Of a stretch of DNA of 64,000 bases, positions 1,136 through 63,632 are shown one piece after another. The notes under the pieces are model-generated. The model was not told the origin of the DNA, searched no databases, and was given only the letters and a program-made list of their open reading frames with translations. The translations under genes and the position numbers were made by a program. Source of the DNA: Martelella mediterranea DSM 17316 (GTDB lineage Bacteria > Pseudomonadota > Alphaproteobacteria > Rhizobiales > Rhizobiaceae); contig NZ_CP020330.1 in the NCBI RefSeq assembly GCF_002043005.1, positions 2,684,001 through 2,748,000 on the forward strand. The letters run 5' to 3'. Position 1 is the stretch's first letter. Each line of letters begins with the position of its first letter.

Positions 1136-1214
1136 GTCATCCTCGGGCTTGACCCGAGGATCCAGGCCACACGGCGAAAGCTGCCTTGACCCTCGGGTCA
1201 AGCCCGAGGGCGAC
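1136..1214. repeat. Paired-hairpin palindromic repeat, copy R1
   Basis: Two hairpins in mirror order: an arm around CTCGGGCTTGACCCGAG (1142-1158) and its reverse complement CTCGGGTCAAGCCCGAG (1192-1208), separated by about 33 bp. The same arm recurs near 6.4, 27.3, 40.4 and 63.5 kb, always between genes. It separates the EEP gene from ligA and is close to the copy beside the IS110 element (same spacer start GGATCCAGGCCACACGG). Confidence 0.85.
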
Positions 1215-6386: not shown

Positions 6387-6600
6387 CTGCTGACAAAGTT
6401 CTCCCCACCTTCCTTCGTCACCCTCGGGCTTGTCCCGAGGGTCTAAGCACGTATCAATGCGACAAGCGTATCGGACGAAAGGTCAATTCAAAGCAAGATG
6501 TTACGGACCGCCGACTCCGCTCGTGCGAAGCGGTGGTTAGATCCTCGGGACAAGCCCGAGGATGACGTCCGTAAAAAGGGTTGGTTTGTAAGTAACCCGA
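6387..6600. repeat. ~210 bp hairpin-bounded dispersed element, copy R2
   Basis: Two mirror-image hairpin arms (CCCTCGGGCTTGTCCCGAGGG at 6421-6441 and CCTCGGGACAAGCCCGAGG at 6543-6561) bound a ~100 bp interior. Read on the minus strand, the whole block, interior included, aligns with 40370-40590 (shared GAGCGGAGTC, GGTACGCTT-like, GTGCTTAGACCCTCGGGAC and an ACTTTGTCAGCAG-like end). It lies between the convergent ends of prmA and the GlxA regulator. No coding capacity is apparent. Confidence 0.75.
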
Positions 6601-23097: not shown

Positions 23098-24195
23098 ATG
23101 ATGAATACCAGTGTTTCCATCAAGGACCTCTCGCTCTCCTTCGGGGCGATCGACGTCCTCAAGAACCTCGATCTCGATATCCATGACGGCGAGTTCCTCG
23201 TGCTGCTCGGCTCGTCCGGCTGCGGCAAGTCCACGCTTTTGAACTGCATCGCGGGACTGCTGGACGTGACCGGCGGGCAGATATTCATCAAGGACAAGAA
23301 CGTCACCTGGCTGGAGCCGAAGGATCGCGGCATCGGCATGGTGTTCCAGTCCTATGCGCTCTATCCGCAGATGACGGTGGAGAAGAACCTGTCCTTCGGC
23401 CTTCAGGTCGCCAAGGTGCCGAAGGCGGAGATCGACAAGCGCGTCAAGCGCGCCTCCGAAATCCTGCAGATCGAGCCGCTCCTGAAACGCAAGCCTGCCG
23501 AGCTTTCTGGCGGGCAGCGCCAGCGCGTCGCGATCGGTCGCGCGCTGGTGCGCGATGTCGACGTGTTCCTGTTCGACGAGCCCTTGTCGAACCTCGACGC
23601 CAAGCTCAGGTCGGAGTTGAGGGTTGAGATCAAGCGGCTGCACCAGTCGCTTGAAAACACGATGGTTTACGTGACCCATGACCAGATCGAGGCGATGACG
23701 CTGGCCGACCGGATCGCGATCATGCGCGGCGGCGTGATCCAGCAGCTCGACGAGCCGACCACGATCTATAACCGCCCGGTCAATCGCTATGTCGCCGGCT
23801 TCATCGGCTCGCCGCCGATGAACTTCATGGATGGCGAATTGCGCCACGAGAACGGCAAGCCGGTGTTCCGCACCAATGATGTCGACTTCTCGCTCGAAGG
23901 CTATGATGCCAATGGCGAACTGCCGGAAACCGACAAGGTGACGCTCGGCGTCAGGCCGGAGCATATCGTCATCGACAAGGCGCTGTCGGAAGAAAACCTC
24001 GAAGTGCATGAGGCGACGGTCGACCTCGAGGAGCCGATGGGCGCCGACAGCCTGCTATGGCTGAAATATGCCGGTCATCTGATGACCGTCAGGGTGAACG
24101 GCAATGTCCGCTACAAGGTCGGCCAGAAGATCCGCTTCGCCTTTGATATTCCGCTTGCCTCGGTCTTCGATGCGAAGACCGAACTGCGGCTTTGA
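23098..24195 (+). CDS. Sugar ABC transporter ATPase (MalK/UgpC family)
   Basis: 365 aa. Walker A GSSGCGKST is at residues ~38-46, Q-loop VFQSYALYPQMTV, ABC signature LSGGQRQRVAIGRALVR, Walker B VFLFDEPLSNLDAKLR and H-loop THDQIEAM. The C-terminal ~110 residues are the TOBE regulatory domain typical of MalK-type CUT1 ATPases (GVRPEHIVID). It powers the two upstream permeases. Start and preceding stop are contiguous (TAA-ATG). Confidence 0.95.
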   Translation: MMNTSVSIKDLSLSFGAIDVLKNLDLDIHDGEFLVLLGSSGCGKSTLLNCIAGLLDVTGGQIFIKDKNVTWLEPKDRGIGMVFQSYALYPQMTVEKNLSFGLQVAKVPKAEIDKRVKRASEILQIEPLLKRKPAELSGGQRQRVAIGRALVRDVDVFLFDEPLSNLDAKLRSELRVEIKRLHQSLENTMVYVTHDQIEAMTLADRIAIMRGGVIQQLDEPTTIYNRPVNRYVAGFIGSPPMNFMDGELRHENGKPVFRTNDVDFSLEGYDANGELPETDKVTLGVRPEHIVIDKALSEENLEVHEATVDLEEPMGADSLLWLKYAGHLMTVRVNGNVRYKVGQKIRFAFDIPLASVFDAKTELRL

Positions 24196-24275
24196 AGCAA
24201 GGCCGCGCTCCCGCGCGGCATGAATAACAGACAGGGCATGCCGGCCGGATCGATGGCGGCAGCCGGAGGAAACAG

Positions 24276-25037
24276 ATGACAAAACTAGGATTCCAGCTTT
24301 ACAGCGCGCGCAACTACCAGCCGTTTTCTACCATCTTCAAGAAACTCGCGGCAGCGGGCTACAGCGAAGTGGAAGGCTACGGCGCGCTTTACGACGATCT
24401 CGACCAGGCGGCGCTCGACCGGCTTTCTACCGATCTGGCGACGATCGGGCTTGCCATGCCGACCGGTCACTTCAGCCTCAACATGCTTGAAAACGAGCCC
24501 GAACGCGTGCTCGAGATCACATCGGCGCTGAAGATGGACAGCGTGTTCTGCCCCTTCCTGATGCCGGATGACCGCCCGACGACGGCCGAGGGCTGGCGCG
24601 ATTTCGGGGCCCGGCTGGAGAAGGCCGGCGCGCTCATGCGCGATGCCGGCCTCGTGTTCGGCTGGCATAACCACGATTTCGAATTTGCAGCCCTTGAAGA
24701 TGGCAGCGTGCCGATGACGCATTTGATGGAGGGCGGGCCTACGCTGGCCTGGGAGGCCGATATCGCCTGGATCATCCGCGGCGGCGCAGATCCGCGCCAC
24801 TGGATCGAGACCTACAGCGATCGTATCAGCGCCGTCCATGTCAAGGATATCGCGGAACCGGGCGAAAACGAGGATGAGGATGGCTGGGCCGATGTCGGCC
24901 ATGGCACGGTCGACTGGAAGGGGCTGATGGGCGTCCTGAAGCCGCTGCCGATCCGCCACTACATCGTCGAGCACGACAATCCGAACGATATCGATCGCCT
25001 GATCGAGCGGTCCATCGCATCTTTCCAGTCTTTCTGA
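24276..25037 (+). CDS. Sugar phosphate isomerase/epimerase-type TIM barrel protein
   Basis: 253 aa with the xylose-isomerase-like TIM barrel (AP endonuclease 2 fold): GFQLYSARNY at the first strand, FGWHNHDFEF, WEADIAW, ISAVHVKDIA and IVEHDNPNDI supply the metal-binding Glu, Asp and His residues. Members isomerise or epimerise ketoses, or process 3-keto sugars. GCCGGAGGAAACAG precedes ATG 24276. Position between a sugar ATPase and a Gfo/Idh/MocA dehydrogenase places it in catabolism of the imported sugar. Confidence 0.88.
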   Translation: MTKLGFQLYSARNYQPFSTIFKKLAAAGYSEVEGYGALYDDLDQAALDRLSTDLATIGLAMPTGHFSLNMLENEPERVLEITSALKMDSVFCPFLMPDDRPTTAEGWRDFGARLEKAGALMRDAGLVFGWHNHDFEFAALEDGSVPMTHLMEGGPTLAWEADIAWIIRGGADPRHWIETYSDRISAVHVKDIAEPGENEDEDGWADVGHGTVDWKGLMGVLKPLPIRHYIVEHDNPNDIDRLIERSIASFQSF

Positions 25038-25048
25038 ACGAGGCTTTC

Positions 25049-26170
25049 ATGACCAGGGAACTTGGTGTCGGCATCCTCGGATGCGGCAATATTTCCGCGA
25101 CCTATTTTTCTCTCGCGCCGCTGTTTCGCGGCCTCAAGGTGCTCGCCTGCGCCGACATCAATCCGGCGGCGGCCACCGCGCGCGCGGAGCAATACGGCGT
25201 GACGGCACAGAGCGTCGACGAACTGCTCCAGAACGATGAGCTTGACGTGATCGTCAACCTCACCATTCCGGGCGCGCATTACGAAATGTCGAAGCGGATT
25301 CTCGAGGCCGGCAAGCATGTCTATTCGGAAAAGCCGCTGGTGCTTTCCGTCGACGAGGGCAAGGAACTCGGCCGCATCGCCGCCGAAAAGAGGCTTTCGG
25401 TCGGCTGCGCGCCGGATACGTTTCTGGGCGGCGCCCACCAGCGCGCCCGCAAATATATCGATGAGGGCGGGATCGGGCGGGTCACCTCCGGCACCTGCCA
25501 CGTGATGAGCCCGGGCATGGAGATGTGGCATCCCAATCCGGATTTCTTCTTCTTGCCCGGCGGCGGCCCCGTGCTCGATCTTGGCCCCTATTACATCGCC
25601 AACCTGATCAACCTGATCGGTCCGGTGAAACAGGTGGCGGCGCTGACCTCGATGGCGAACGAGACCCGCACCATCACCTCCGAACCGCGCCGCGGCGAGA
25701 TCATTCCGGTGAAGACCCCGACCAATATCCATGCGCTGCTGGAGTTTCAAAGCGGGGCGACCATTTCTCTTTCCGCAAGCTGGGATGTGTGGGCGCACCG
25801 TCATTCCAACATGGAGCTTTACGGAACCGAGGGAACGCTGTTCGTGCCGGATCCCAATTTCTTCGGCGGCAAGGTCGAGGCGGCGGGCCGCGACGGCAAG
25901 ACATCCGAGCTCGACAGCCAGGATCACCCCTTCGGCAAGCCCAATCAGGGCGAGCGCGCCAATTACCGCACGGCGGGCCTTGCCGATATGGCGGTGGCGC
26001 TGATCGAAGGTCGCGATGCCCGCTGCTCGCTCGCTCGTGCGCTGCACGGCGTCGACGTCATGGCCGCGATCCTGAAATCCGGGGAGACCGGCGCCTTCGT
26101 CCCGCTGTCGACGACCTGCTCCCAGCCGGCGGCGCTGGATGCGGAGGCGGCCAGGGCGCTGTTGCGGTAG
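25049..26170 (+). CDS. Gfo/Idh/MocA family oxidoreductase of the sugar operon
   Basis: 373 aa. Rossmann start VGILGCGNISATYFSLAPLF, the family lysine motif HVYSEKPLVLSVDEG near residue 95, and a C-terminal domain with GGGPVLDLGPYYIANLINLI. Only 11 bp after the TIM-barrel gene, so it is the last gene of the operon. Such enzymes oxidise sugars at C1 or C3 with NAD(P)+. Pairing with the isomerase fits a 3-keto-glycoside or aldose-oxidation route (inference). The stop codon at 26170 lies only 18 bp from the IS110 insertion. Confidence 0.9.
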   Translation: MTRELGVGILGCGNISATYFSLAPLFRGLKVLACADINPAAATARAEQYGVTAQSVDELLQNDELDVIVNLTIPGAHYEMSKRILEAGKHVYSEKPLVLSVDEGKELGRIAAEKRLSVGCAPDTFLGGAHQRARKYIDEGGIGRVTSGTCHVMSPGMEMWHPNPDFFFLPGGGPVLDLGPYYIANLINLIGPVKQVAALTSMANETRTITSEPRRGEIIPVKTPTNIHALLEFQSGATISLSASWDVWAHRHSNMELYGTEGTLFVPDPNFFGGKVEAAGRDGKTSELDSQDHPFGKPNQGERANYRTAGLADMAVALIEGRDARCSLARALHGVDVMAAILKSGETGAFVPLSTTCSQPAALDAEAARALLR

Positions 26171-26189
26171 TTCCCCTAGTCATGCGTCA

Positions 26190-27125
26190 TCAACTCTGTT
26201 GGATGACTTTCTCTGTGAACCTTGCATTGAGGGTCACGACGATTTTTCGCATGACTGCTGCGATCGCGACGATTGGCTTTTTGCCGGCTTCGACAAGGCG
26301 CTTGTAGAAGGCGGCGAACTCGCCCCTTCCGCGGGCGGCCTGCATGGCCGGCATGAACAGGATGGTGCGCATGACGGGTCTGCCGCCGCGCATTCTCCGG
26401 TAACCGATCTTGTTGCCGCTCTCGTTTGGGTGCGGCGCCAGGCCGGCCAGCGCCGCCGCCTTTTTTCGATCCAGCGTCCCGAGTTCGGGCATTGTGGCGA
26501 TCAGGGCGGCGGCGGTTGTCTCCGCGATGCCGGTCATCGCCATTGCGATGCTGGCCCTGGCTGCAAAGGCTTCGCTGCGCATGAGCATGCGGATTTCCTT
26601 GTCGAGCAGCGCGATCTGGCGATTGATGGCAGCGAGCATGGCCTTGAAGGTGACGGCAAGTTCACGTCCGCCCGGCGCCATGGCGCGGTTTTGCTCGGCG
26701 ACCCTGATGGCGACCAGATCGGCGCGGCGGCGCACAAGGGCCTTGAGCCTTGCCTCTTCAGGGTTTTCAGCCTGCCACAGGGACAGGCTTGCCCAGCGTT
26801 CCATGCCATAGGCGACCATTTCCCGGGCATCGATCGCATCGCTCTTGCCGACCCGTCCACGCGAACGAATGAAGGCCTTGAGCCTGCGCGTATCGGCCCG
26901 GTGGACGGCAAGGCCGCGCCGCAGGCACTCTTCGATCAGGACGGTTTCATACCCGCCGGTGGGTTCGCAGATGACCAGATCTGCCTCGCAGTTTCGCAGG
27001 AAGCGACGAATATCCCTGCTGCGATTGGCGATGACGGTGGCCGGACCGCCGCAGGAAACGGCGATCGTGTCCTTTGCAACGTCGCAACCAAGACAGATGT
27101 GCGGAGGGTGATGCAAAACGACCAT
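26190..27125 (-). CDS. IS110 family transposase (bridge-RNA-guided recombinase)
   Basis: 311 aa. The N-terminal RuvC-like domain keeps the DEDD set: Asp15 (CDVAKDT), Glu54 (CEPTGGYE), Asp96 and Asp99 (KSDAIDAREM). A central coiled coil is predicted near residues 120-185. The C-terminal Tnp domain contains Gly-Leu-Ala-Pro followed by NESGNKIGYRRMRGG, with Ser236 the expected catalytic serine. All catalytic residues and an uninterrupted frame suggest an active enzyme. ATG 27125 follows AAAGGATAGCATCGCC. IS110 recombinases use a bridge RNA made from the element's non-coding end to select donor and target. Confidence 0.95.
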   Translation of the reverse strand: MVVLHHPPHICLGCDVAKDTIAVSCGGPATVIANRSRDIRRFLRNCEADLVICEPTGGYETVLIEECLRRGLAVHRADTRRLKAFIRSRGRVGKSDAIDAREMVAYGMERWASLSLWQAENPEEARLKALVRRRADLVAIRVAEQNRAMAPGGRELAVTFKAMLAAINRQIALLDKEIRMLMRSEAFAARASIAMAMTGIAETTAAALIATMPELGTLDRKKAAALAGLAPHPNESGNKIGYRRMRGGRPVMRTILFMPAMQAARGRGEFAAFYKRLVEAGKKPIVAIAAVMRKIVVTLNARFTEKVIQQS

Positions 27126-27149
27126 GGCGATGCTATCCTTTCAAGGCAT

Positions 27150-27202
27150 GCTTGGGATTGTTTGCGGGCGTGGCAATCAGCGGCCCAATCAACTCTTCAA
27201 GC
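27150..27202 (-). other. Bridge RNA donor-binding loop
   Basis: Left donor guide AGAGTTGAT (27196-27188) is identical to the element's right terminus plus core (complement of 26197-26189). Right donor guide CAAACAAT (27164-27157) is the reverse complement of ATTGTTTG, the core plus left terminus (27339-27332). They are separated by a GGGC/GCCC stem (27186-27183 with 27169-27166). Confidence 0.82.
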
Positions 27203-27212
27203 GGTTGCTCGG

Positions 27213-27274
27213 TGCAACAGTGACCTTGATGACAGCGGGTGTTCCACCCAATGCTCGGACGGTCGGCTGTTGCA
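27213..27274 (-). other. Bridge RNA target-binding loop
   Basis: Inside the outer stem and an inner GACC/GGTC stem (27264-27261 with 27225-27222), the left guide GTCCGAGCAT (27260-27251) faces the right guide GTCAT (27233-27229), separated by hairpin GGGTG-GAA-CACCC (27249-27237). The left guide equals 9 of 10 bases of the occupied target GCCCGAGCAT, the exception being a U-G wobble. The right guide is the complement of ATGAC on the other flank. Both include the AT core. Confidence 0.82.
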
Positions 27275-27313
27275 GCAGCTGCGGGCAAGCCAACGGCCCG
27301 CAGCTGCATCACA

Positions 27314-27338
27314 ACAATAGCGCAGATCCGACAAACAA
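27314..27338 (-). promoter_or_regulatory. Circle-junction promoter for the bridge RNA
   Basis: A -10 like TATTGT lies at 27319-27314. When the two IS ends are joined through the AT core, the right end TTG plus AT plus the first T of the left end makes TTGATT exactly 17 nt upstream. Transcription would start near 27307, the base of the 5' stem-loop. In the integrated form the -35 is broken. Confidence 0.6.
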
Positions 27339-27417
27339 TGCTCGGGCTTGACCCGAGGATCCAGGCCACACGGAGAGCGTCGCCTGGACCCTCGGGTCAA
27401 CCCCGAGGGTGACACGG
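27338..27417. repeat. Paired-hairpin palindromic repeat, copy R3, split by the IS110 element
   Basis: Arms CTCGGGCTTGACCCGAG (27341-27357) and CCCTCGGGTCAACCCCGAGGG (27390-27410) share the GGATCCAGGCCACACGG spacer start with copy R1. The outer edge of the first arm (GTC and CAT-side bases) is found across the insertion at 26181-26190. Confidence 0.85.
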
Positions 27418-27445
27418 AGAGCGGGGTGGGATATTCCAAAATCAG

Positions 27446-27472
27446 AGGCGGCGGCGTTCTGCCGCCTTTTTC
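27446..27472 (+). terminator. Rho-independent terminator, probably of the sugar operon
   Basis: AGGCGGC pairs with GCCGCCT around an 8-nt loop and runs into TTTTTC. It lies upstream of the aldo/keto reductase gene and reads rightward. The nearest rightward gene ending before it is the sugar-operon oxidoreductase at 26170, now separated from it by the IS. Confidence 0.75.
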
Positions 27473-27513
27473 ATGGTCGGGCCGTCCCGGCCCTCTTCAG
27501 GCAGGAGGATATG

Positions 27514-28563
27514 ATGCGCTGGACACCCTCGAAGACCCGCTACGATACGATGCAATACAACCGCTGCGGCGCCTCCGGCCTCAAGCTGCCGGCGATATCG
27601 CTCGGCCTGTGGCACAATTTCGGCGACGATACCGAGCGCGCCCGCAAGGTGGCGATCTGCCAGACCGCGTTTGATGCCGGCATCACCCATTTTGATCTCG
27701 CCAATAATTACGGCCCGCCGCCCGGCTCCGCCGAAAAGGCCTTTGGCGATATCCTGCGCAACGAATTTGCCGGCTTGCGCGACGAGTTGATCATCTCGTC
27801 CAAGGCCGGCTATGGCATGTGGGAGGGGCCCTATGGCGAGTGGGGCAGCCGCAAGAACCTTCTCGCATCCTGCGACCAGAGCCTGAAACGGCTCGGCCTC
27901 GACTATGTCGATATCTTCTATTCCCACCGCTTCGATCCCGATACGCCGCTGGAGGAGACGATGATGGCGCTCGACCAGATCGTGCGGTCGGGCAGGGCGC
28001 TTTATGTGGGAATTTCTTCCTATAATTCTGAGCGCACCCGCGCGGCCTATAAGATCCTGAAGGAGTTGAAGACGCCCTTCGTCATCCACCAGCCGAGCTA
28101 TTCGATGATCAATCGCTGGGTGGAAGAGGACGGGCTGCTCGATACGCTTGCGGAACTCGGGCTCGGCTCGATCGTGTTCTCGCCGCTGGCGCAGGGCATG
28201 CTGACGTCCAAATATCTGAAGGGCATACCCGATGACAGCCGGGCGGCGCAGGGCAAATCGCTGCGCCATGAATTCCTGCGCGAGGACACGCTTGAGCATA
28301 TCCGGGCGTTGAACGCGATCGCCGAGCGGCGCGGCCAGACGCTGGCGCAGATGGCGTTGGCCTGGGTGCTGCGCGGCGGGCGGGTTACCACCGCGCTGAT
28401 TGGCGCAAGCCGTCCCGAACAGGTGCTCGATTGCGTGAAGGCGCTCGACAACCCCGATTTCACTGAAGCCGAGCTTGCCGAAATCGACAAATATGCTCGC
28501 GAGGCCGACATCAATCTCTGGGCGAAATCGGCCGAACGCAAGGGTCCGGAGCGGCAGAAGTAA
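27514..28563 (+). CDS. Aldo/keto reductase, YghZ/MgrA (L-glyceraldehyde 3-phosphate reductase) type
   Basis: 349 aa. ATG 27514 sits at good spacing behind GCAGGAGG; ATG 27511, one codon earlier, is the alternative. The product begins MRWTPSKTRYDTMQYNRCG, and has the AKR catalytic Asp/Tyr in FDLANNYGPPPGSAEKAFG, Lys in ISSKAGYGMWEGPYGEWGS, and His in YVDIFYSHRFDPDTPLEET. The C-terminal NADPH-binding IGASRPEQVLD is present. Length and motifs match YghZ, which reduces L-glyceraldehyde 3-phosphate and detoxifies methylglyoxal. Confidence 0.92.
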   Translation: MRWTPSKTRYDTMQYNRCGASGLKLPAISLGLWHNFGDDTERARKVAICQTAFDAGITHFDLANNYGPPPGSAEKAFGDILRNEFAGLRDELIISSKAGYGMWEGPYGEWGSRKNLLASCDQSLKRLGLDYVDIFYSHRFDPDTPLEETMMALDQIVRSGRALYVGISSYNSERTRAAYKILKELKTPFVIHQPSYSMINRWVEEDGLLDTLAELGLGSIVFSPLAQGMLTSKYLKGIPDDSRAAQGKSLRHEFLREDTLEHIRALNAIAERRGQTLAQMALAWVLRGGRVTTALIGASRPEQVLDCVKALDNPDFTEAELAEIDKYAREADINLWAKSAERKGPERQK

Positions 28564-40372: not shown

Positions 40373-40590
40373 TCCTGGCTGCTCACAAAGTTATCCTTTC
40401 TGACGGACGTCATCCTCGGCCCTGTGCCGAGGATCTAATCACCTCTCTATGCGAGCGGAGTCTGCGGTTATCAATGTGCTGTTTTTTATGCATTTCTTAA
40501 TCCGGTACGCTTCTCGCGCGGGTAAGTGCTTAGACCCTCGGGACAAGCCCGAGGGTGACGGAAGAGGGTGGGGCAGCTTTTGTCAACAGG
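40370..40590. repeat. ~210 bp hairpin-bounded dispersed element, copy R4
   Basis: Hairpin arms CCTCGGCCCTGTGCCGAGG (40414-40432) and CCCTCGGGACAAGCCCGAGGG (40535-40555) enclose a ~100 bp interior. It aligns with copy R2 (6387-6600) in the opposite orientation, including interior GAGCGGAGTC, GGTACGCTT and AGTGCTTAGACCC. It fills the gap between the PadR gene and the GNAT gene; no coding signal is seen. Confidence 0.75.
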
Positions 40591-63507: not shown

Positions 63508-63632
63508 ACGGGTCATGCTCGGACTTGATCCGAGCATCCATGCGGCTTAAGCCATTGATCAAAAAGATATTTTGGTAAGTGCCCGTCGTATTTCCTGGAT
63601 CCTCGGGTCAAGCCCGAGGATGACCCGGAGTG
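63508..63632. repeat. Paired-hairpin palindromic repeat, copy R5, with perfect IS110 target match
   Basis: Arm GTCATGCTCGGACTTGATCC (63511-63530, continuing GAGCAT) and arm GGATCCTCGGGTCAAGCCCG (63598-63617) lie in mirror order. The first arm contains GTCCGAGCATGAC on the minus strand (63523-63511), matching the IS110 bridge-RNA left guide 10 of 10 and the right guide 5 of 5. The 312 bp between ackA and the XRE gene otherwise hold no coding signal. Confidence 0.85.

Follow-up and report, generated by a model that had tools for sequence, protein, structure and literature searches.

A predicted bridge RNA in an IS110 element of Martelella, with left target guides that follow the REP palindromes it interrupts

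How does an insertion element come to interrupt one short palindrome ten times over in a single genome, and what in the element specifies that site? The question is raised by a 64,000-nucleotide stretch of Martelella mediterranea DSM 17316 (NZ_CP020330.1, positions 2,684,001 to 2,748,000; hereafter the window), which carries an IS110 element with the parts given below in window coordinates.

26189..27339, minus strand: complete IS110 element, 1151 bp including both AT cores (copy comparison and fused flanks)
27340..27360, minus strand: REP palindrome left of the insertion, ATCCTCGGGTCAAGCCCGAGC (flank reading, copy comparison, genome pattern search)
27314..27319, minus strand: putative -10 box TATTGT, which circularisation of the element would place 17 bp from TTGATT
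27140..27309, minus strand: predicted bridge RNA (fold z -3.77, covariation in 27 homologues)
27275..27307, minus strand: 5′ stem-loop, 12 bp (fold; helix 1 in the homologue alignment)
27213..27274, minus strand: target-binding stem-loop (fold; helix 2)
27251..27260, minus strand: left target guide (LTG) GTCCGAGCAT, core-binding AT included (9/10 match to the left flank)
27253, minus strand: polymorphic guide base beside the core, C in six copies including this one and T in four (element position 87)
27229..27233, minus strand: right target guide (RTG) GTCAT (exact complement of the right flank ATGAC)
27150..27202, minus strand: donor-binding stem-loop (fold; helices 4 and 5)
27188..27196, minus strand: left donor guide (LDG) AGAGTTGAT (identical to the right end)
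27157..27164, minus strand: right donor guide (RDG) CAAACAAT (reverse complement of the left end ATTGTTTG)
26190..27125, minus strand: IS110 recombinase (DEDD and Transposase_20), 311 aa, intact frame (Pfam, IS621 alignment)
26189..26197, minus strand: left donor AGAGTTGAT, overlapping the recombinase stop TGA, the core and the would-be -35 box of the circle

Very probably these are the parts of a mobile element of the IS110 group, which recombines into the ATGAC tail of a REP under the guidance of a bridge RNA. As an IS110-group element with a bridge RNA it is a member of a known group and not a new kind of system.

The ends of the element were located by aligning ten near-identical copies in its own genome (G000, 5.69 Mb), with 0-6 mismatches to the window copy over 1151 bp. 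On the minus strand the left core AT lies at 27339-27338 and the right core AT at 26190-26189, and the REP tail resumes right of the element as AT-GAC (26190-26186). All ten copies interrupt one extragenic palindrome, a REP, at YCCGAGS^AT^GAC with AT at both junctions, in the palindrome form CTCGGGTCAAGCCCGAG(C/G)^AT^GAC, whose upstream arm and loop are somewhat variable. The 20-base sequence GGNTCAAGYCCGAGNATGAC occurs uninterrupted 53 times in the same genome (reversed control, 0 matches), and because 6 of these 53 sites are identical to the window's fused flanks GGGTCAAGCCCGAGCATGAC, the ends of the element are fixed. The initial annotation, made from the window alone, had proposed an AT core common to the four guides and an alignment of other copies as a check; both are borne out by the ten copies, while the REP nature of the insertion site was absent from it. 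Five uninterrupted REP tails CCGAGNATGAC lie in the window (1136-1146, 6556-6566, 40409-40419, 63512-63522 and 63614-63624; expected 0.22). One in-frame TAG each is found in copies L016, L017 and L018, and the three have an A-to-T change at element position 929 in common. Within window 23098-28563 the element sits between two plus-strand frames that we take to be a Gfo/Idh-type oxidoreductase and an aldo/keto-reductase-like protein, with what are presumably an ABC transporter ATPase and an isomerase-like frame adjoining these neighbours (named by the look of their sequences), and may split an operon there.

The recombinase matches PF01548 (37.7 bits, cut-off 29) and PF02371 (57.4 bits, cut-off 21.3), and its closest solved relatives, found with a seven-sequence profile (A1), are IS621 (8wt6, E 1.7e-35) and ISCro4 (9t56, E 5.2e-32). 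Residues D15, E54, D96, D99 and S236 align with the IS621 catalytic residues D11, E60, D102, D105 and S241, as named in the available parts of PMC11208158 (residue numbers in the 8wt6 chain are two higher than in IS621 numbering). The stop codon TGA lies inside the left donor and has its A in common with the core, and the right end is without non-coding sequence. GAGTTGAT was found in the fetched DNA of 23 of 27 elements, and in 22 of these the frame stays open for 181 codons or more ahead of that TGA, against 70 in L153. Joining of the ends would create TTGATT-17-TATTGT, a sequence match to a promoter of which the -35 box is missing while the element is integrated. In 25 of 27 elements a TANNNT lies at a spacing of exactly 17 bp, a count that assumes the right end TTGAT in all 27 and sees it in 23, and in 7/27 another spacing gives a better -10 score. 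As far as its sequence can be read, coding end, donor site, core and putative -35 box overlap in this element, in the layout reported for IS621.

The predicted bridge RNA lies upstream of the gene, in the IS110 order, rather than downstream of it as IS1111-type RNA does. Read on the minus strand, 27309-27140 has a folding energy of -74.7 kcal/mol where shuffled versions average -58.96 (z -3.77; 0/200 shuffles as good), with the 5′ hairpin arms GCAGCTGCGGGC (27307-27296) and GCCCGCAGCTGC (27286-27275) paired; the complete bridge RNA with a 12-bp 5′ hairpin and two guide loops that the initial annotation had read at 27140-27309 is thereby supported. All four guides end in the AT core. The donor guides stand as they were first read, the LDG equal to the right end and the RDG complementing the left end ATTGTTTG. 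The claim that the target guides match the flanks holds exactly for the RTG and falls one base short for the LTG, which matches the left flank GCCCGAGCAT at nine of ten bases; at the second base the guide has T against C in the flank, a possible rU:dG wobble. No Rfam family matched anywhere in the window at gathering scores. Five miRNA-family matches at a relaxed E-value, one of them over the REP palindrome, were far below gathering scores and were rejected as chance.

Conserved structure among homologous elements, on which the first reading had been staked, is what we found in an alignment of 27 homologous left ends. In the named structure 89.5% of cells are paired against 81.0 when shuffled, 18 of 35 pairs carry changes on both sides and the covariation score is 0.261 against 0.111, each with 0/500 shuffles as high; further pair types lend weaker support, reached by 12/500 shuffles. 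The structure was taken from the window fold and its pairs were then counted, an origin in one aligned sequence that favours this structure over slid versions of it, and the double-sided changes in helix 2 (the target loop), present in 10 of its 12 pairs, are the stronger evidence. Donor helices 4 and 5 are paired in 100% of lettered cells across the 27 sequences; since the donor arms are nearly invariant, these helices are conserved and consistent, with covariation giving no test of them. RNAalifold missed the 5′ stem in the 27-sequence alignment, at least partly since MAFFT shifts the loop by one column in Pleomorphomonas-type sequences. In L130/L148 an unrelated sequence replaces the left end upstream of the target loop, and there the 5′ stem-loop is gone and the guide segments of both loops are kept.

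Guides and insertion sites were compared in 30 element groups with 65 copies, guide strings and end motifs being read by eye. Across 24 distinct guide-target pairs (16 distinct guides), a mean of 5.58 of the six bases beside the core are paired with wobble and 5.33 without, against a mean of 4.20 and a best of 4.96 for shuffled guide-target pairings, 0/20,000 of which reach the observed 5.58. Over eight bases the mean is 6.90 against 5.34 shuffled (0/20,000), with only 7 of 29 distinct pairs fully paired. All six bases pair in 50 of 63 full-flank copies, a count in which copies within one genome are related and perhaps not independent events; the 13 incomplete cases include L009 and all four own-genome copies with a U guide, which lie at G sites and so face a U-C mismatch. 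A later set from order- and class-wide searches (17 loci minus four repeats, of L143, L150, L155 and L152, and minus L206 with its cut flank) comprises 12 full-flank loci with 9 distinct pairs and gives 5.33 of six against 3.84 (27/20,000), with full six-base pairing in 6/12 loci. Hosts include Phyllobacterium, Mesorhizobium, Aquibium, Rhizobium rhizogenes, Pleomorphomonas, Stappia and Acetobacteraceae or Rhodospirillales bins; in the family, order and class searches at most five candidates were scored per genome, so copy numbers there are lower bounds. The permutation test was run without L153 and L154, whose flanks are cut by contig ends (2/65 rows), and with L151, whose core register is off by one. 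Left out of the survey were L126, L129 and L131 (the same elements as L139, L149 and L162), L130/L148 (left end replaced), L161 (the same contig end as L104), L159 and L168 (no left end of their own), L164-L166 and L169-L173 (distant) and L177-L190 (distant or fragmentary), and the elements of G009 and G010 (30-33% identical) were left out of the guide counts.

On the right side there is little variation to follow, ATGAC being nearly constant at the right junction (46 of 48 copies read; that of L156 is irregular). The right guide varies in one element only, L162 of Mesorhizobium camelthorni (L131 has the same left and right ends), and in it guide and site change together, with RTG CTCAT at ATGAG. 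The initial annotation had expected guides to covary with sites and ends in other copies; this applies to the left target guides, rests on one element for the right guide and finds little purchase in the donor arms, which hardly vary. Left guides with AC opposite the AT core, a mismatch at the second core base, occur in 7/65 copies, six of them in Mesorhizobium (L141, L144-L147 and L163), the seventh, L151, perhaps through a register shift; TT and AA stand there in one guide each, and left cores are GT in 2/65.

Two genomes that hold several REP families set the guide against the abundance of the repeats. In G187, sites ending in ATGAC number 109 for GTTCCGGGATGAC, 60 for YCCGAGSATGAC and 34 for RMCCCGGAATGAC, the first of which has 0 occurrences in the other five genomes searched; all five copies examined, with LTG TTTCCGGGAT, lie at GTTCCGGGAT, in the 109-site family. 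G260 has 27 RMCCCGGAATGAC and 39 YCCGAGSATGAC sites, and its four copies, with LTG GTCCCGGAAT, all lie at CCCGGAAT, in the RMCCCGGAATGAC family (reversed-pattern controls in these REP site searches gave 0-2 matches per genome). Because the copies in both genomes match their guide despite the presence of other REPs, the guide and not repeat abundance predicts the site.

Apparent discrimination by a single guide base can be followed in the Martelella genome G006, where two sister elements have LTGs one base apart, GTCCGAGCAT and GTCCGAGGAT. Among the 13 left ends, all that are listed for that genome, those with LTG ..GAGCAT lie at GTCCGAGCAT in 4/4 cases and those with ..GAGGAT at GCCCGAGGAT in 9/9 (Fisher p 0.0014); a further difference between the site classes is T or C at the second base, a position at which the two guides both carry T. 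Contigs break inside the G006 elements, so that sequence identity is all that connects left ends with gene parts: against the window recombinase, identity is 93-95% and about 59-66% for the C-terminal pieces and 83-85% and 50-59% for the N-terminal ones. The first 90 of 124 sites, read by eye, comprise 10 TCCGAGC, 24 CCCGAGC, 1 TCCGAGG and 55 CCCGAGG, so both kinds of site are available to both sisters. When the two C-guide sets of this LTG are pooled with its three G-guide sets (G006, G012 and R. rhizogenes), C guides lie at C sites in 9 of 10 copies and G guides at G sites in 18 of 18 (p 1.4e-6, with copies related). In the genome of the window element, C-guide copies are at C sites in 5/6 and T-guide copies at G sites in 4/4 (p 0.048), the latter not significant alone against a background of 31/53 (p 0.12). 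The T at this guide base is probably derived, because the close sister in G006 has C, and the T-guide/G-site pattern is suggestive only, because U in the guide is left unpaired at a G site. Handshake pairing of a donor-loop C with G was considered for the U-guide copies at G sites; it is a guess, as by eye the handshake bases of the donor loop show no such agreement with the sites of the clade (G260, Acetobacteraceae).

The same REP tail is also used from its other strand. A second IS110 element of the genome, 33-34% identical and 1142 bp long, with a CT core and five copies (L010, L021, L022, L023 and L024), has LTG GTCATCCT and RTG CCCGAG on the two sides of a loop in its predicted fold, and all five copies lie at GTCATC^CT^CGGGCTTGACCC, in the opposite orientation. 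On one strand the cores of the two elements read CCCG-AG-G-AT-GAC, with 1 bp between them, and insertion of either element would disrupt the site of the other; at L010 both elements are present, in two REPs of one pair. Two further IS110 elements of the genome (2 and 6 copies; L019, L020 and L025-L029), with apparent CT cores, lie in other repeats, which their guides seem by eye to fit; those of the larger group are of the TCACC^CT^CACTC type. On balance we favour a reading in which guides evolve with the repeats of their hosts: one base beside the core would decide the REP subfamily in Martelella, with sister elements sharing out the repeats, and a pair of unrelated IS110 lineages would have arrived by convergence at one REP tail, each from its own strand, their motifs exchanged between arms and each insertion destroying the other's site. 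The C-to-T guide change in 4/10 copies of the window element, all at the other REP variant, may then be a shift in progress.

IS621 of E. coli, as described in the available parts of PMC11208160 and PMC11208158, has in common with this element its recombinase domains, catalytic residues and REP targets, and a left-end RNA with a 5′ stem-loop, a target loop and a donor loop of the same guide polarity. Its joined ends rebuild a promoter (PMC11208158), for which the present element has a matching sequence layout, and it tolerates a mismatch between its natural guide and its common natural site, as do the guides described here. It differs in its core (CT, against AT here) and its REP sequence, and in that the right end of our element has no non-coding sequence. 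An AT core supported IS621 recombination in E. coli, and T as second core base is the rule in that system, where the base is called almost invariant (PMC11208158, available parts); AT at both junctions of our ten copies agrees with it. At the handshake positions, CA after the RTG (27227-27228) fits the donor TG and CC after the RDG (27155-27156) fits the target GG. Handshake bases that pair with cognate DNA are reported to stall exchange in IS621 (PMC11208158, available parts), in which donor and target differ there. In our element both first positions are C; with G before the core in the donor and in 49/65 targets, the IS621 handshake rule cannot hold in the same form, and cognate and non-cognate DNA must be told apart in some other way. 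ISCro4 (PDB 9t56, E 5.2e-32), the second solved relative of the recombinase, was compared at the sequence level.

Insertion of IS110 elements into REPs was reported in 2006 for ISPpu9, ISPpu10, ISPa11 and ISRm19, all counted copies of which, like those described here, lie in REPs of their hosts, the dissimilar ISPpu9 and ISPpu10 at the same REP position (PMC1525189, available parts). That work predates bridge RNAs, and guides were therefore left unread in it. ISRm19 is probably not close to our element, because none of the Sinorhizobium plasmid records matched the recombinase at E 1e-30. The IS1111 group with its seekRNA shares a DEDD recombinase and a target-setting RNA, which however, by the available account in PMC11187229, usually lies downstream of the gene with the guide order reversed, whereas here it lies upstream in the IS110 order. 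The M. soudanensis relative already bears the NCBI name 'IS110 family RNA-guided transposase'.

Exact ends, four guides, a common AT core, covariation in the RNA structure and, between as well as within genomes, agreement of left target guides with their sites can all be read from the DNA; transcription of the RNA and movement of the element we infer by analogy. On the model of IS621, excision would join the ends, so that TTGATT (right end and core) and TATTGT (left end, 17 bp on) would form a promoter driving the RNA, which would bind the recombinase. Its first loop would pair with both strands of the REP and its second with both strands of the joined ends, and the top strands would be cut after AT and then exchanged. 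Relatives would keep the donor loop and alter the target loop to suit the REPs of their own host, and point changes in the left guide could, from the pattern of sequences, shift an element between REP families.

Could the copies instead be dead, descended from a former bridge-RNA element and spread by homologous recombination between REPs? The internal TAG in 3/10 copies and the flanks of L015 and L018, which resemble each other by eye, would suit such a history, but the frame is intact in seven copies, that of the window among them, both junctions are exact in all ten, and copies 0-6 bases from the window copy look young; we regard it as improbable. It is rather less probable still that the RNA is real and mainly controls expression of the recombinase. 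Two small RNAs do so for the REP-inserted ISPpu9, according to the available text of PMC8450116, and the RNA here lies directly upstream of its gene, yet control of expression does not account for the match of four segments to four DNA half-sites or for a left guide that varies along with its site. The two roles can coexist.

Least probable, in our judgement, is that recognition of the REP lies with the recombinase rather than the RNA, and that the segments resembling guides are captured REP sequence kept by descent. Capture would also give guides that resemble the repeat each element occupies, and the IS621 recombinase itself contacts the core (PMC11208158, available parts). Capture sits poorly, however, with matching bases on two sides of one internal loop, one sense and one antisense, in a covarying RNA with a conserved donor loop beside them, or with an unrelated second IS110 element in which these two motifs have changed arms and whose insertions are oriented the other way; IS621, moreover, has been shown to depend on its RNA and to obey that RNA when reprogrammed (PMC11208160, available parts).

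Earlier work already covers bridge RNAs, the targeting of REPs by IS621, covariation across the family and the toleration of mismatches between guide and site (PMC11208160 and PMC11208158, available parts). Among the listed matches of a search of the open-access literature, with most subscription papers and bioRxiv outside its scope, no paper dealt with Martelella elements, a one-base REP partition or mirror guides. New here are the one-base partition of REPs by sister elements, the mirror guides and the overlap of stop codon, donor site, core and putative -35 box.

Bridge RNAs can be reprogrammed in the laboratory, and covariation over thousands of elements implied the same in nature; here guide change is seen one base at a time within single genomes, with the competing sites as an internal control. 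The competing REP variants CCGAGCAT^GAC and CCGAGGAT^GAC differ beside the core, and for the targets CCGAGCATGAC and CCGAGGATGAC the pattern of the sister elements predicts that a C guide will choose the C site and a G guide the G site; these natural parts make guide-site discrimination beside the core directly testable. A compact clade of AT-core recombinases with a minimal donor end is also on offer. REPs may attract IS110 elements by offering many safe sites that a short guide can follow.
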